From assembly GCF_024345185.1 (NCBI RefSeq), contig NZ_BROB01000003.1, forward strand, positions 1-64,000: a stretch of DNA of 64,000 nucleotides, in the 5' to 3' direction. Shown one piece after another: positions 15,684-61,825 of the stretch. Origin of the DNA: Levilactobacillus humaensis. GTDB taxonomy: Bacteria > Bacillota > Bacilli > Lactobacillales > Lactobacillaceae. The notes below the pieces were generated by a model. The model was not told where the DNA came from, ran no database searches, and saw only the letters and a program-made list of their open reading frames with translations. Each line of letters begins with the position of its first letter. Within the stretch, counting starts at the first letter, position 1. Position numbers and translations under genes: made by a program.

Positions 15684-15795
15684 TCATGTTGTATTTGTGG
15701 ACTTCCACAGCTGCAACCGCTCGGGACGAGTCATTAAGTTTTCCGCTTGCGGAGCACTTGTTTTCGGCGAGTCTAAGTCTAACTATATAAGGAGG
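15684..15795 (+). ncRNA. Ribosomal protein L21 leader
   Basis: The roughly 115-base untranslated leader between the rplU promoter and rplU, in the position and with the short hairpins (GTGGACTTCCAC at 15696-15707; CCGCTTGCGG at 15741-15750) expected for the L21 leader found in Firmicutes upstream of rplU. Such leaders are thought to let a ribosomal protein repress its own operon. An open frame crosses it, but has no ribosome-binding site. Assignment rests on position and hairpins, not on a covariance search. Confidence 0.75.
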
Positions 15796-55530: not shown

Positions 55531-55588
55531 TCTAAATTTGGATGGTCACTTTTGGTTAATCCGAGATAGTAAGGAGAGCGTGAGGCAT

Positions 55589-55885
55589 ATGACACAGGTA
55601 AAAGTCATTAATCCAACGATAGCGGGTCGTTACCAATTCACAACGGCCACGGGGTCACAGTATGAGATTGTTCTCGATGGTGCCAACAAGACGTTGGTGC
55701 GTCGACCCAGAACGCCAGAGGGAAAATTGCGGCAAGACAACCAGCCGATCAAGATCCTCGACCTGGTGAATGTGCAGGTGGGTCAGAGTGCCCAGATCCT
55801 GTTAGAACCTCTGGGATCCGGTGACAATACCATGCGAATCACGAGTCCCGTGGTGGCAATTGATTATCGGCCACTGTCTGAATAA
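55589..55885 (+). CDS. Conserved small protein of unknown function
   Basis: A 98-residue soluble protein beginning MTQVKVINPTIAGRYQFTTATG, rich in beta-forming residues, with YEIVLDGANKTLVRRPRTPEG and a closing MRITSPVVAIDYRPL. It has no membrane segment and no catalytic motif I recognise. I chose ATG 55589, 12 bases after AAGGAGAG; a GTG at 55580 is too close to the site. It lies alone between ffh and the riboswitch, so its function cannot be guessed from context. Confidence 0.65.
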   Translation: MTQVKVINPTIAGRYQFTTATGSQYEIVLDGANKTLVRRPRTPEGKLRQDNQPIKILDLVNVQVGQSAQILLEPLGSGDNTMRITSPVVAIDYRPLSE

Positions 55886-56010
55886 CCAGATAGTTTAAGT
55901 GGATCACCACCGTAATAATGATTGGACTCAGCTTACCGATACCATTAATATTTTAAGTGCTTTTAGGTAGACGCGGCGAAATCATTCCGGTATACTGTTC
56001 CTAAAGCAAC

Positions 56011-56129
56011 CATAAGGGAGTAACTAGCAGCGCAACTCTGCGGCAATACCCGTCAGCAAGATTTCTTTGGAATTGACTGTTCGTCAGTCAGTTGCCAATC
56101 CGGGATTGCCTTAAATAGTGAGACTTATG
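56011..56129 (+). ncRNA. yybP-ykoY manganese riboswitch aptamer
   Basis: A roughly 120-base element closing with P1 CATAAG (56011-56016) against CTTATG (56124-56129). Inside are the hallmarks of this class: GGGAGTA after the P1 5' strand, and AGTGAGAC before the P1 3' strand (consensus AGCGAGAC), with GC-rich helices between. It stands before a P-type ATPase gene, matching Mn-sensing members of Lactococcus and Streptococcus. Assigned by motif and position, without a covariance model. Confidence 0.88.
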
Positions 56130-56174
56130 TGTGTTCACAAATTTATTTGTGTGCACGCGTGAGCCTCTTTTTTT
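56120..56174 (+). terminator. Riboswitch expression-platform terminator
   Basis: Arms 56120-56142 and 56145-56167 pair over 23 positions with two mismatches and five G-U pairs, then seven T at 56168-56174. The 5' arm contains the P1 3' strand of the aptamer, so terminator and aptamer cannot both form: Mn-bound aptamer should release the ATPase gene for transcription. Confidence 0.88.
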
Positions 56175-56228
56175 ACCCCCAAACGGGATAAAGATGGGCT
56201 GACGAGCACACCTCAGGAGGAATTGGCA

Positions 56229-58877
56229 ATGGCCAAAATACCGTTATATCAAGAATCAAAAGATGCTCTGTACCAGCGACTGCAGACGAGTGATCAGGGG
56301 CTGAGTGGCACAACCGCTAGTGAACGACTCGCAGCCAATGGGCACAATGCCCTGAACCAGCAGAAGACATCGTCACTGTTGCAGAAGTTTATCGCCCAGT
56401 TCAAGGATTTCATGATTATCGTCCTCATGGTGGCGGCCCTGATTGCTGGGTTGACCGGAGAAGTCGTGGATGCCGTGATTATCCTGATCGTGGTGGTGTT
56501 AAACGCCATCTTCGGGGTCTTCCAGGAGGCGAAAGCCGAGGAAGCCATTAATGCCTTAAAAGAGATGTCGGCGCCCAATGCCACGATTCGCCGCGACGGT
56601 CAGGTCATGACCGTTAAGAGTGACGAGCTGGTGGTTGGAGATATCGTGTTGCTGGAAGCTGGGGACATTATTCCCGCCGACCTGCGATTGCTCGATGTGG
56701 CTTCGCTCAAGGTGGAGGAATCCGCGCTGACCGGGGAGTCCGTTCCCGTCGAAAAGGCCGCGGCCGTGTTGACCGGGGAAGACCTGCCGATTGGTGATCG
56801 CCACAACATGGCGTTTATGAATTCCAATGTGACCTATGGCCGGGCAACCGGGGTGGTTGTGGCCACGGGGATGCAGACGGAAGTGGGTCGTATCGCTGGC
56901 ATGATTGAAGCCGCGGATGAGACCACGACGCCACTTCAGGCTAATTTGACCCAGTTGGGTAAGTCCTTAACCATTTTAATTCTGGTAATTGCCGCCATTG
57001 TCTTTGGGATGGGCATGTGGCGTCAGGCGGAGAGTCTGATTGACATGCTGTTGACGGCAATTTCCTTAGCCGTCGCTGCGATTCCGGAAGGGTTACCGGC
57101 CATCGTGACGATCACCTTGGCCTTAGGGACCCAGCGGATGGCTAAGCGTCATGCGATTGTCCGGAAGTTACCGGCTGTCGAAACGCTGGGTAGTACCGAT
57201 ATCATTGCTTCGGATAAGACCGGAACGCTGACGCAAAATAAGATGACGGTCGAAAAGGTTTACGAAGACTTACACCTCGTCGATGCTCACACGGTTGACT
57301 TTGACCGTGAGGATCGCTTGGCACAGGTCATGATTCTCAGCAACGATACCAAGGTTACGGCCGATGGCTTGGCCGGTGACCCGACAGAAACGGCGTTAGT
57401 CCAGTATCAAATGGACCGAAATTACCCGGTTAGCCAGGTGTTAGCCGCCATGCCGCGAGTGGCCGAAATTCCCTTCGATTCCGAACGTAAATTGATGTCG
57501 ACGGTGCATCCCTTGGCGGATGGTCGGTTCCTGATCGCCGTGAAGGGCGCGCCGGATGAATTACTGAAACGGGTGACCCGTTTGGCCCAAAATGGGGACG
57601 TGTCGGCCCTGACCGACGCCAACCGACAACAAATCTTAGAGACCAACCACGACATGGCCACGCAGGCCCTGCGCGTGCTGGCCTTTGCCTACCGGATCAC
57701 TGATCAGGTGCCAATGGATATGACCAGTGACACTGTTGAAAATGACTTAATCCTTGCCGGCATGGTGGGGATGATTGACCCCGAACGGCCAGAGGTGGCC
57801 CAAGCCGTGGCAGATGCCAAGGCCGCGGGAATTCGCCCGATGATGATCACCGGGGACCACCGCGACACGGCGGCGGCCATTGCCGTTCGACTGGGGATCA
57901 TTGACGCCGGTGAGACCGATGCCGTGATTACCGGGGCCGAACTCGACGCAATGGACGATGCCACCTTTGCCAAGAAGGTCAGTGACTACGCGGTCTACGC
58001 TCGAGTCGCCCCCGAGCACAAGGTTCGGATCGTGAAGGCTTGGCAGAAACGCGGTAAGGTCGTGGCCATGACCGGTGACGGGGTCAACGATGCGCCAGCG
58101 TTGAAGGCCGCTGATATCGGGATCGGTATGGGGATCACCGGGACCGAGGTTTCCAAGGGGGCCAGTGACATGGTCCTCGCCGACGATAATTTCTCCACCA
58201 TCGTGGTGGCGGTCGAAGAGGGACGGAAGGTCTTCGCTAACATTCAGAAGGCCATTCAGTACCTGTTGTCGGCCAACCTTGGGGAAGTCTTGACGCTCTT
58301 CATGATGACCATGTTGGGCTGGCAAATTCTGGCGCCGGTCCACATTCTCTGGATTAACCTGGTGACCGATACGTTGCCGGCAATTGCCTTGGGAATTGAA
58401 CCGATGGAAAAGAACATCATGAAGCAGAAACCACGAGGCCGGAAGTCGAACTTCTTCTCCGGCGGGGTGTTGGGTGGGATTCTCTACCAGGGACTACTTG
58501 AAGGTGGAATTACCCTGTTCGTTTACTGGTTGGCGATTACCTACCCGGTTCACCAAGCCACCCAGATGGCCCACGCCGATGCCTTAACCATGGCATTTGC
58601 GACACTCGGGCTGATTCAACTGTTCCATGCCTTTAACTCCAAGTCGATTCATGGGTCTATCTTCTCGGTTGGTTTGTTTAAGAACAAATTCTTCAACTGG
58701 GCGATCGTGATTGCCTTCGCGTTACTGGCCATGACTATCCTGGTTCCGGGACTTAACGGCATGTTCCACGTGGCTCACCTGGATCTCTTCCAGTGGGCAA
58801 TCGTGTTGGCCGCATCGTTCATGATGGTCGTGATTGTGGAAATTGTTAAATTCTTCCAGCGCCGCGTGGTAAAATAA
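56229..58877 (+). CDS. P-type cation ATPase, probable Mn2+ exporter
   Basis: An 882-residue membrane pump of the PMR1/SERCA-like P-type family. Residues 62-95 and 250-296 give the first membrane helices, TGES is at 168-171, PEGLP at 286-290, the phosphorylated aspartate is D329 in SDKTGT, and TGDGVND and the later helices with NLVTDTLPAIALG follow. The Mn riboswitch upstream and known riboswitch-controlled homologues (L. lactis YoaB, S. pneumoniae MgtA) indicate Mn2+ export; Ca2+ is an alternative. ATG 56229 is eight bases past AGGAGG. A branched terminator follows. Confidence 0.9.
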   Translation: MAKIPLYQESKDALYQRLQTSDQGLSGTTASERLAANGHNALNQQKTSSLLQKFIAQFKDFMIIVLMVAALIAGLTGEVVDAVIILIVVVLNAIFGVFQEAKAEEAINALKEMSAPNATIRRDGQVMTVKSDELVVGDIVLLEAGDIIPADLRLLDVASLKVEESALTGESVPVEKAAAVLTGEDLPIGDRHNMAFMNSNVTYGRATGVVVATGMQTEVGRIAGMIEAADETTTPLQANLTQLGKSLTILILVIAAIVFGMGMWRQAESLIDMLLTAISLAVAAIPEGLPAIVTITLALGTQRMAKRHAIVRKLPAVETLGSTDIIASDKTGTLTQNKMTVEKVYEDLHLVDAHTVDFDREDRLAQVMILSNDTKVTADGLAGDPTETALVQYQMDRNYPVSQVLAAMPRVAEIPFDSERKLMSTVHPLADGRFLIAVKGAPDELLKRVTRLAQNGDVSALTDANRQQILETNHDMATQALRVLAFAYRITDQVPMDMTSDTVENDLILAGMVGMIDPERPEVAQAVADAKAAGIRPMMITGDHRDTAAAIAVRLGIIDAGETDAVITGAELDAMDDATFAKKVSDYAVYARVAPEHKVRIVKAWQKRGKVVAMTGDGVNDAPALKAADIGIGMGITGTEVSKGASDMVLADDNFSTIVVAVEEGRKVFANIQKAIQYLLSANLGEVLTLFMMTMLGWQILAPVHILWINLVTDTLPAIALGIEPMEKNIMKQKPRGRKSNFFSGGVLGGILYQGLLEGGITLFVYWLAITYPVHQATQMAHADALTMAFATLGLIQLFHAFNSKSIHGSIFSVGLFKNKFFNWAIVIAFALLAMTILVPGLNGMFHVAHLDLFQWAIVLAASFMMVVIVEIVKFFQRRVVK

Positions 58878-58906
58878 GACGACGCGTGACAACTAATCAC
58901 AACTTA

Positions 58907-58973
58907 AAAAGAGGTTGCGCGTGGCCGGCCGTTCCGAATTTGGAATGGTAGAGCTTCGGTGCAACCTCTTTTA
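58907..58973 (+). terminator. Branched terminator after the ATPase
   Basis: AAAAGAGGTTGC pairs with GCAACCTCTTTT over 12 bases. Inside, CCGTTCC and GGAATGG form a nested hairpin at 58929-58948. The outer stem ends in T residues. It separates the ATPase from the MoxR module. Confidence 0.88.
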
Positions 58974-58994
58974 CATAGAAATGGAGTGAGTCGC

Positions 58995-60176
58995 TTGGCC
59001 TTAACTTATGAAGCCTGTTTACAAGCCGTCAACGTGGTCATTGCCAGTGGCAGTGTGCCGACGATTGTGGGGGAGGCCGGTATCGGGAAATCCGCTCTGG
59101 TCGCCGACTTGGCCCGGCAACGTGATGCCAAGCTCTTCACCACCGTGGTCAGCCTGGTGGAAAAAGGGGATCTGGTGATTCCCGTGCCACCACTGACTAG
59201 CGATTCCTTCGTTCAGACGGCGGATTATGGGTCCCTGGCGGACGTTCAATTTGGCTACTCGCATACGCTAGTGGCGATGATTCGTTATGCCCAAGAACAT
59301 CCCCAACAGGAGATTATTTGGTTCCTCGACGAGTTCAACCGCGGGACGCAAGCGGTTCAGAGTGAACTCATGAACTTGGTCTTACAGCGGCAAATTAACA
59401 CGCTGAAGTTACCACAACAGGTTCACCTGGTCCTGGCCGAAAATCCGGATGCCACCATGGCGGGATTCGAACAGAGTCACTACGGTGTGACACCCGGGGA
59501 TGCGGCGATTGCTGACCGGACGACGCGACTGATTTTAACGGCCGATAGTGATAGCTGGCTAGAGTGGGCGACAACTGAAACTGCAGGTAGTCCGCGGCTC
59601 ACGCCACTGGTCACGGACTACGTGGCCGAGAATCCCGCTGACTTGCACCTGGTGGCGAGTGGCACGGCGATGGCCGATGATGACTTGCAACCGACGCCCC
59701 GGGCCTGGGAACGGGTCTCAGACGCCTTGCGTGAGCTAGACCGTCAGCGCTTGATGGGCCAAACGGCCATTCTGACCGCCATTTTACAAGGAAATCTGGG
59801 AACGACGGTTGGGACCACCTTTGCCAGTTACGTGCAAAAGCGCCGACCAGGTTTAACGGTAGAAGCAGCCTATACGGCAGCTGATGCGACGGCGGTCTTT
59901 GCCAAACTGACGCCGGCCCAGCAGCAACAGATTTTACGTCAGTGTCTAGATGACCTGGCGGCTTGGCCATTGACGCAAGATGCCAATGCTCAGCGATTCG
60001 CGGCATTGCTCGCTCTCTGTCCAGCCGATGCCCAGTACGCGGTGGCTCGGGATATGGCGACTATCGACGACCTCTTTGAGAGACTGGCCGATCAGACGGC
60101 AGCTGAACCTGGCGTGGCTGAACTCTACCAGACGTTGACGACGATTGGCCAACGCGGGAGTCAGATTGAGGTGTAG
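58995..60176 (+). CDS. MoxR-type AAA+ ATPase
   Basis: A 393-residue AAA+ ATPase starting at TTG 58995 (eight bases after GGAG; an earlier GTG lies within that site). Walker A GEAGIGKS is at residues 27-34, Walker B IIWFLDEFNR at 107-116 with D112-E113, sensor N in VLAENP (148-151), and an arginine finger in ADRTTR (173-178). MoxR ATPases pair with VWA proteins to remodel or load metal cofactors on targets. It forms an operon with the VWA gene three bases later. Its own target is unknown. Confidence 0.88.
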   Translation: MALTYEACLQAVNVVIASGSVPTIVGEAGIGKSALVADLARQRDAKLFTTVVSLVEKGDLVIPVPPLTSDSFVQTADYGSLADVQFGYSHTLVAMIRYAQEHPQQEIIWFLDEFNRGTQAVQSELMNLVLQRQINTLKLPQQVHLVLAENPDATMAGFEQSHYGVTPGDAAIADRTTRLILTADSDSWLEWATTETAGSPRLTPLVTDYVAENPADLHLVASGTAMADDDLQPTPRAWERVSDALRELDRQRLMGQTAILTAILQGNLGTTVGTTFASYVQKRRPGLTVEAAYTAADATAVFAKLTPAQQQQILRQCLDDLAAWPLTQDANAQRFAALLALCPADAQYAVARDMATIDDLFERLADQTAAEPGVAELYQTLTTIGQRGSQIEV

Positions 60177-60179
60177 CGT

Positions 60180-61532
60180 ATGACGAGTCTAACGCATGAT
60201 TTAAAACAGTTAGCAACAGTGGCCGCGAGTGATCAAGATCAGGCAACCAAACGGCTCTACCGGGAGGCTGTGATGGTGCTATTACGCGATGATCCCTTCT
60301 ATGGCCGGGTGTTAAGTCAGCTCACGGTACAAGTGGGGACTGCGCGCACCCCACTGGCCTTGTTGCCCACGGATCGTGAGTGGCAACTTCAAGTTAATCC
60401 AGCCGCGCTCGTTAAACGTGATTGGACCGGCGCTGAGTGGTTGGCGATGTTGCGGCATACGGTATTGCACCTGTTGTGGCAACATCCCGATCGTTATGCC
60501 ACGGCACTCAAAACCTCAGCTCAAGCTGGGCTAGCACGGTGGGCGACCGATGCCGCCGTTAACGATTATTTAACGGATTTACCCAGTGGGGCGATCACCA
60601 GCCGCGACTTGGAGCGTTTGTTAGGGCAACCCGTCGCGTCTCGGCAGGATTCAGCGATCTATTTTCAACAACTCAGAGAGTGGCAGGCCCAACAGAACTC
60701 GGTGGATCATACCCACGGAACCGGTGGTCCGCAACAGACTGGCGACCGGGTGACCCGGGATGCGACGGCTGATCCGACAACGGCCACAGTCTTGGATGGT
60801 CATGACGCCTGGCGGTCAGGATCGGTGACGACCCAGGCCGTCAGGGAACAGTGGCGCCAACAAGTGCTGACCCAAACGGCCGAGAGTCTGACCGCGAAGC
60901 AACGTGGGACGCTTCCTGGAGCCATTCAGGCGGCATTGACACCGATCGCAGTAGTTCACCCATTAGATTGGCGGACCCTGCTTAAACGGGGTCTAGGACA
61001 GGTTCCTGCGGGTCGCCAGGCAGCTTATGGCCGGTTCAATCGCCGCCAGCCGGCTCGCATGGAATTACCGGGTCAAATTGTGGCGACCTGGCAACGGTTG
61101 TCAGTCTTTGTCGATGAGTCGGGCTCAATGGGTGATCAGGAGGTTGCGTACCTCCTAGGCCAATTGGCGGCGTTATTGGCCGTTTATCCGGCTCAGGTGA
61201 CCGTTTATCCCTTTGATGCTATCGTTCATCTCGATCAACGTTTCACGCTTGAGAGACGTTCGCAGCGCCTCGTACGAACGGGTGGCGGGGGAACGGCCTT
61301 TCAAGCCGTGCTGGATTGCTTGCCACGCCTACTGACAACAACCAGTGGCCAGCTAGTTCTGATTCTCACGGATGGCTATGGCGAGCAACATTTACGGCCG
61401 ACGTTGCCGGTTCCTATCATTTGGCTACTCACGAGTCCCACGGACCAGTTTTCCGTTAAAAATCCACCGGGAACGGTGATTAGCTTGAGTACCGATCCAC
61501 AGTGGCAAGCCTTAAGGAGGTCCCAGTCATGA
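60180..61532 (+). CDS. VWA-domain protein with degenerate metallopeptidase domain
   Basis: A 450-residue protein. Residues about 25-180 match the DUF2201/VWA-like family N-terminal domain, with HTVLHLLWQHPDR at 93-105: the histidines H93, H97 and H102 are kept, but the position usually glutamate in HExxH is T94. A hydrophilic linker follows and a VWA domain (about 300-450) has the MIDAS residues D312-x-S314-x-S316, T372 and D398. It is probably the substrate adaptor of the MoxR ATPase next to it. It overlaps the following gene by four bases. Confidence 0.85.
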   Translation: MTSLTHDLKQLATVAASDQDQATKRLYREAVMVLLRDDPFYGRVLSQLTVQVGTARTPLALLPTDREWQLQVNPAALVKRDWTGAEWLAMLRHTVLHLLWQHPDRYATALKTSAQAGLARWATDAAVNDYLTDLPSGAITSRDLERLLGQPVASRQDSAIYFQQLREWQAQQNSVDHTHGTGGPQQTGDRVTRDATADPTTATVLDGHDAWRSGSVTTQAVREQWRQQVLTQTAESLTAKQRGTLPGAIQAALTPIAVVHPLDWRTLLKRGLGQVPAGRQAAYGRFNRRQPARMELPGQIVATWQRLSVFVDESGSMGDQEVAYLLGQLAALLAVYPAQVTVYPFDAIVHLDQRFTLERRSQRLVRTGGGGTAFQAVLDCLPRLLTTTSGQLVLILTDGYGEQHLRPTLPVPIIWLLTSPTDQFSVKNPPGTVISLSTDPQWQALRRSQS

Positions 61533-61825
61533 CAACCCAATTATCGGGTAAGGAATTACGTGCCTTAATTAACCAAACGGCCTGGTTTAAGAATGCCCAA
61601 GCGATCCTCGCCGATGAGTGGGGCGCCCGGGCACCGGAGAATCCGCTCTTTCAGGCACCGGTTACGGTAGCTGACTTACAATTTGCCCGTGACCTGAGTC
61701 AGGCCGGGCTCTTCAAGAGTCGACTGGACTTTAGCGACTATGGTGCCGTGCAGCGCTGGATCGCCGCTAATCGGTCCTATTTAACGCCGGATGATCGGGC
61801 CTGGTTACAACGCCCATTTGAATAA
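61529..61825 (+). CDS. Small protein of the MoxR/VWA operon, unknown function
   Basis: A 98-residue soluble protein beginning MTTQLSGKELRALINQTAWFKN, helical in appearance, with WGARAPENPLFQAPVTVADLQFA and YGAVQRWIAAN. I do not recognise the family. AAGGAGG at 61513-61519 sets ATG 61529, overlapping the VWA stop by four bases (ATGA), so it is translated with that gene. As the last gene before the rpsP promoter, its function is presumably tied to the MoxR/VWA pair. Confidence 0.75.
   Translation: MTTQLSGKELRALINQTAWFKNAQAILADEWGARAPENPLFQAPVTVADLQFARDLSQAGLFKSRLDFSDYGAVQRWIAANRSYLTPDDRAWLQRPFE

Follow-up and report, generated by a model that had tools for sequence, protein, structure and literature searches.

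A putative Mn2+ riboswitch with an overlapping terminator upstream of a P2A-type ATPase gene in Levilactobacillus humaensis

The yoaB Mn2+ riboswitch of Lactococcus lactis (PDB 4Y1I), a member of the yybP-ykoY class, is found upstream of a gene for a P-type ATPase. In L. lactis, Mn2+ stabilises the helix P1.1, whose 3' strand is also part of a competing terminator, as set out in passages of PMC11087558, PMC6754395 and PMC9190785, and the ion is bound by A41 through its N7 and by U39 and C40 through phosphate oxygens (a passage of PMC9190785). In streptococci, MgtA is described in parts of PMC11434433 as a secondary, fail-safe Mn2+ efflux ATPase under control of a Mn/Ca-sensing yybP-ykoY riboswitch, and a reference cited there terms it a Mn2+/Ca2+ transporter in its title. 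Two further streptococcal RNAs have been reported. In S. pneumoniae TIGR4, the RNA SN44, located between SP1551 and SP1552, is labelled yybP-ykoY (a passage of PMC2887815), while in S. pyogenes Northern blots revealed the RNA SSRC10 directly upstream of a "putative calcium transporter", and mapping by RACE showed it to be terminated, its sequence including a Rho-independent terminator (passages of PMC3675131). SSRC10 is filed in Rfam (RF02617) as an sRNA gene ("Gene; sRNA"). A literature search, with most subscription journals outside its scope, gave listings in which no description of this lactobacillus leader appeared; the survey of yybP-ykoY sites in PMC3766115 covers groups that include Lactobacillaceae, and its supplements may contain the leader.

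The leader described here is encoded in L. humaensis, within a window of 64,000 nucleotides, which is the whole stretch of DNA that was analysed (positions 1 to 64,000 of contig NZ_BROB01000003.1). In all probability it is a Mn2+-sensing transcriptional ON riboswitch, placed before a P2A ATPase that would export excess Mn2+ and possibly Ca2+, much as in the case of streptococcal mgtA. Its features are given below, where R1 stands for a covariance model built from 25 distinct aptamers of the genus, and the rows are those of an alignment of 82 leaders (79 distinct) whose sources were hand-chosen from the collected loci and all matched R1 at E<=0.01.

55968-55996, + strand: promoter, TAGACG and TATACT 17 nt apart (consensus scan, 9/12)
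56011-56129, + strand: aptamer of the manganese (yybP-ykoY) type, three-way-junction form (R1 match, covariation over 82 rows)
56011-56016, + strand: switch helix P1.1, 5' strand CATAAG (fold; double-sided changes in 5/6 pairs)
56016-56022, + strand: L1 core GGGAGTA, its first G being the last P1.1 base (in 82/82 rows)
56023-56026 with 56116-56119, + strand: P1 helix (fold)
56027-56041, + strand: P2 hairpin, GCAG/CTGC (fold; double-sided changes in 5/5 P2 pairs)
56042-56110, + strand: P3 with L3 CGTCA and a long apical hairpin (fold; double-sided changes in 8/10 P3 pairs)
56120-56123, + strand: 3' side of L1, GAGA, common to the terminator (GAGAC or AAGAC in 82/82 rows)
56124-56129, + strand: switch helix P1.1, 3' strand CTTATG, within the terminator 5' arm (fold)
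56120-56174, + strand: intrinsic terminator, stem 56120-56167 and U tract 56168-56174 (7 T) (folding versus shuffles)
56215-56220, + strand: Shine-Dalgarno sequence AGGAGG (sequence)
56229-58877, + strand: P2A-type (Ca/Mn-type) P-type ATPase, 882 aa (Pfam, NCBIfam)

A comparable promoter pair with the same 17-nt spacing is present in 30/30 loci of the genus. Transcription probably starts at about 56003, and the structured leader begins 14 nt past the promoter. The aptamer is closed by the pairing of CATAAG with CTTATG, read from both sequence and fold; this helix, called P1 in the initial annotation, corresponds to P1.1 in the L. lactis literature. P1.1 and the terminator exclude each other, since the terminator 5' arm takes up both CTTATG of P1.1 and the conserved GAGA. 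The terminator stem holds 20 pairs and 3 mismatches, that is, 23 positions, and folds with -25.1 kcal/mol (z -6.5), which none of 200 shuffles equalled. Probably owing to these mismatches, the site at 56120-56167 was not listed by a generic terminator scan of the window, which returned one other site versus 4.0 expected. When the growing leader is folded as prefixes, with the start set at 56004, P1.1 is part of the minimum free energy structure for prefixes ending at 56132-56156 and is gone from 56160 onward. The full leader folds with -59.5 kcal/mol versus -48.8 kcal/mol when P1.1 is forced, a difference of 10.7 kcal/mol in favour of the terminator state, from which a leader that is OFF by default, absent a stabilising ligand, is predicted.

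The overlap between both structures was scored in the 82 leaders by a script requiring at least 4 of the 6 P1.1 3' bases within a hairpin ahead of a T tract. It was found in 78 of them, and in 76 with an energy below -8 kcal/mol, a strict rule that only 109/820 shuffled downstream sequences pass. Of the script's four exceptions, three are regained when read by eye: in L007 and L016 the script tripped on an early T-rich stretch and the hairpin is visible, and the terminator hairpin is present in L104 as well. An overlapping terminator thus accompanies 81/82 leaders, from nine families, L107 being the only one without it. The closure by CATAAG/CTTATG and the location of its 3' strand in the 5' arm of a 23-position terminator, as first noted in the initial annotation, are confirmed by folding, and the arrangement recurs in these leaders more often than by chance.

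Two loci keep the aptamer with no terminator seen (L273:1349-1448 and L107:201-290). In the former, the 3' L1/P1.1 strand AGACUC pairs in the fold with GAGUCU of the Shine-Dalgarno region; in the latter, a pairing of this strand with the Shine-Dalgarno region is visible by eye only and is absent from the fold. This arrangement suggests translational control of these two leaders.

By analogy with its homologues, the leader would take Mn2+ as its ligand and use it to turn on a Mn2+ transporter. As transcription proceeds from the promoter (55968-55996), P2 and P3 would fold first. Enough Mn2+ would let L1 (GGGAGUA/GAGA) and L3 (CGUCA) dock around the ion, and the docked state would keep the 6-bp P1.1 until the polymerase clears the U tract. 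At low Mn2+, P1.1 would instead be invaded by the downstream arm, and the terminator formed in this way, which also takes up the 3' half of L1, would end transcription at about 56170.

The structure of the aptamer is conserved across the 82 rows, an alignment that was fitted to the model structure and so favours it: paired cells amount to 96.1%, and 23/27 pairs change on both sides. Versions of the structure slid along the alignment are 27-38% paired, and the covariation score of 0.472, versus 0.217 for shuffled alignments, was reached by 0/500 shuffles. P1.1 itself is 97.0% paired, whereas the apical two-pair helix is weak (69.3% of cells). Within L3, the C is present in 82/82 rows and the A in 81/82, the sole exception to the latter being a Lactococcus row that is mis-aligned there. 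This A, at 56055 in the window, should be the base that contacts Mn2+. The base before CA is T in 52 rows and otherwise C (19 rows) or A (11 rows), so that a position that contacts the metal in L. lactis, the U of CGUCA, differs in 30/82 rows here.

The gene behind the leader starts with an ATG at 56229, following AGGAGG, and ends at 58877. Its translation contains DKTGT, and five P-type/HAD domains of Pfam lie over their cut-offs. The Ca-type residues of M4 (AAIPEGLP), M5 (NLGE) and M6 (NLVTD), positions with ion-binding roles known from SERCA, are kept, and together with the P-type domains and DKTGT they identify the protein as a P2A ATPase. A P-type ATPase follows on the same strand in 40/40 sampled R1 matches from eight families; these loci were hand-chosen and are no census, 20 of them representing as many different genera of Lactobacillaceae and the other 20 lying elsewhere in the order. 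The ATPases behind 36 of these matches are 56-71% identical to that of the window and the remaining four 42-44%, about 43% being the kind of identity seen in Lactococcus (L160, L177). In the genus, the ATPase is present in all 35 genomes searched, with 79-100% identity, and aptamer and hairpin are found in all 30 leaders that were read. Among the Lactobacillaceae genomes, 109 gave no R1 match; 20 of these were searched, and six keep an ATPase orthologue (62-69%). Four of these, from other Lactobacillaceae genera (L270, L271, L272 and L274; 63-69%), lack the leader according to R1 at E<=10, which means that the pump can also operate with no such leader. L273 has a divergent leader (R1 24.9 bits), and the L275 orthologue, judged by R1 alone, gave no match.

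The initial annotation had this ATPase exporting Mn2+ rather than Ca2+, a choice that goes beyond the sequence, which does not tell both ions apart. A rather unlikely alternative is that the leader senses Mn2+ and the ATPase, in keeping with its family name, carries chiefly Ca2+ or else both ions. The best NCBIfam models for the protein are TIGR01522 and TIGR01116, which describe Ca2+ ATPases of the PMR1 and SERCA types (both below cut-offs), lmo0841, which bears the name of a calcium-transporting ATPase, is among the solved structures nearest to it, and PEGLP in M4, NLGE in M5 and NLVTD in M6 would suit such a pump. Streptococcal MgtA, its nearest studied relative, also goes under both ions, and its riboswitch is called Mn/Ca-sensing in passages of PMC11434433, a source that labels MgtA as P1B-type, which the profiles obtained here do not fit. 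On the other hand, a Ca2+ pump induced by Mn2+ would make little sense unless Mn2+ were moved too, and the same aptamer stands ahead of the two ATPase subfamilies of the 40 loci. The likeliest job of the pump, judged from its relatives, would be Mn2+ efflux, perhaps together with Ca2+. The genome additionally encodes three Nramp and two CDF proteins, and a search of it found no MntP.

The region 55538-61825 encodes a small protein, the ATPase, an AAA_5 protein and a DUF2201/VWA protein, and is located between genes that we take to be ffh and rpsP, which are usually close neighbours in Firmicutes. An AAA gene follows the ATPase in some other loci of the genus as well (by eye). After the ATPase, at 58906-58972, there is an inverted repeat, AAAAGAGGTTGC ... 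GCAACCTCTTTT, which is probably a two-way terminator. Far upstream in the window, a ribosomal protein L21 leader (RF00559) is found at 15705-15784 with 59.5 bits.

Regarding its distribution, R1 scores the window aptamer with 121 bits (E 6.2e-30), the window sequence itself being within the training set, and the loci of other genera among the 82 with 52-105 bits, except for two RF00080-type loci at 23-24. R1 matches 192/301 Lactobacillaceae genomes at E<=0.1, in 29/40 genera and mostly once per genome, and 206/295 genomes of the order at E<=1, in 66/74 genera (the two genome sets overlap). This breadth weakens the earlier picture of a dedicated and notable riboswitch-controlled exporter in lactobacilli.

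Homology to accepted yybP-ykoY members is seen at several places. R1 (62-70 bits) and RF00080, the Rfam model of the class (18-32 bits, under its cut-off), coincide on the same strand in G409, G430, G369, G390, G376 and G424. Where RF00080 is over its cut-off, R1 recovers 12/12 fetched loci, though with weak scores (16-24 bits, E from 4e-4 up to 0.05). In L. cremoris it gives 22.9 bits at the place of a 39.0-bit RF00080 match. Overall it recovers 13/15 sources tested, the misses being L. taiwanensis and L147. The latter was rejected as a chance pattern match, so that L. taiwanensis is the one missed among 14 true riboswitch loci. The Mn2+ riboswitch with an exclusive terminator and ON logic put forward in the initial annotation is supported by this homology, together with the covariation, the constant bases of the core and the constant gene context.

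The likeness to Lactococcus was read on L. cremoris (L177) and partly on L. taiwanensis (L160) in place of the L. lactis record itself; the core of the L. cremoris leader agrees with the crystallised L. lactis aptamer. Both sides have in common the L1 GGGAGUA, the L3 CGUCA, the AGAC on the 3' side of L1, the use of the P1.1 3' strand as terminator 5' arm, and the P-type ATPase downstream. They differ in the junction: Lactococcus forms an additional, fourth stem (ACATAC/GTATGT), whereas in the window sequence and its fold the linker between P3 and P1 consists only of UUAAA and forms no stem, unlike the four-way junction of the crystal structures. Beyond CGUCA, L3 continues with GCAAG in the window and with AUUCG in Lactococcus, whose ATPase, of the NLGAI/NLVND sort, shares only 43% identity with that of the window.

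The initial annotation proposed a search with the yybP-ykoY covariance model and listed the lack of a match among the outcomes that would speak against it. This is formally what was obtained: RF00080 has no match in the window, either at gathering or at E<=10, nor in an Rfam search of 17 loci of the genus, and its only two matches in the genome (9.5 and 8.9 bits, both elsewhere) were discounted as chance. The result says little and does not refute the riboswitch, because the cut-off of 45 also excludes the leaders of L. cremoris (39.0 bits) and L. taiwanensis (37.6 bits), both of the Lactococcus type that has been studied. The gathering score is a database threshold and not a necessary condition for the class, and the model includes an additional stem 3' of P3 that the window does not have. 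In the order, RF00080 (Rfam 15) is over its cut-off in 18/148 genomes, all from one family (f8), with weaker matches in 11 more. The loci of this family share the core of L1, P3 and L3; L096, of this type, has a stem between P3 and P1, and their target genes are other than P-type ATPases, none of 12 loci having one within 1.5 kb. Behind one of them (L266, the same place as L086) there are two tandem genes that we read as TerC-like.

These differences leave some room for a divergent aptamer that has kept the yybP-ykoY frame and binds another ligand, since RF00080 is negative, the junction is three-way, L3 departs from Lactococcus past CGUCA, and the U of CGUCA varies. Such a change of ligand is improbable, given that GGGAGTA, (G/A)AGAC and, with a single exception, the CA of L3 persist in every row, including the RF00080-type L096, and that a P-type ATPase lies behind all 40 sampled matches.

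The Streptococcus counterpart of the leader is SSRC10. Matches to RF02617 at gathering level fall on R1 places ahead of ATPases in L124, L125, L126 and L133. Three of these (L124-L126), taken as streptococci from their SSRC10 matches, stand in for the named mgtA gene, which we take to be SP1551; like the window, they have no fourth stem, a terminator that overlaps the aptamer, and an ATPase that is 63% identical. Their apical part is shorter (an aptamer of 101 nt versus 119 in the window), and so is the terminator. As the SSRC10-linked loci also lack it, the fourth stem looks variable within the class. SSRC10 is very probably the terminated leader of a Mn2+ riboswitch, misfiled as an sRNA. That the short RNA is instead an independent sRNA acting in trans, as the Rfam filing, the terminated RNA seen by Northern and RACE, and a weak hit of the SSRC10 model to the window (14.7 bits versus a gathering score of 56) might suggest, is highly improbable, as SSRC10 adjoins the putative transporter gene on its upstream side (PMC3675131, in the passages cited above), coincides with R1 ahead of ATPases, and has the terminated form expected from a riboswitch in its OFF state.

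Against the Mn2+ riboswitch there are, in sum, the negative RF00080 search, the absent fourth stem, the one variable base of the ligand site and the four leaderless orthologues. Even so, the leader is a genuine and ordinary member of a known switch class, with a junction form overlooked by current annotation. A further, rather doubtful idea is that the Lactobacillales share a distinct three-way-junction subclass of Mn2+ riboswitches, with a UUAAA-like P3-P1 linker and scores below the Rfam cut-off, of which SSRC10 would be the terminated leader; the loss of the stem might retune docking, for instance so as to suit lactobacilli, whose internal Mn2+ is high, or to admit Ca2+ as a co-ligand.

Two gaps in annotation, both of which can be closed, follow from these comparisons. 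RF00080 is over its cut-off in no sampled genome of the order outside a single family, whereas R1 finds leaders in many, and the "small RNA gene" of RF02617, very probably a terminated riboswitch leader, is the second gap. Many lactobacilli hoard manganese. The leader would extend a well-studied metal switch to these bacteria, in which the P-type ATPase is predicted to be a regulated outlet for Mn2+.
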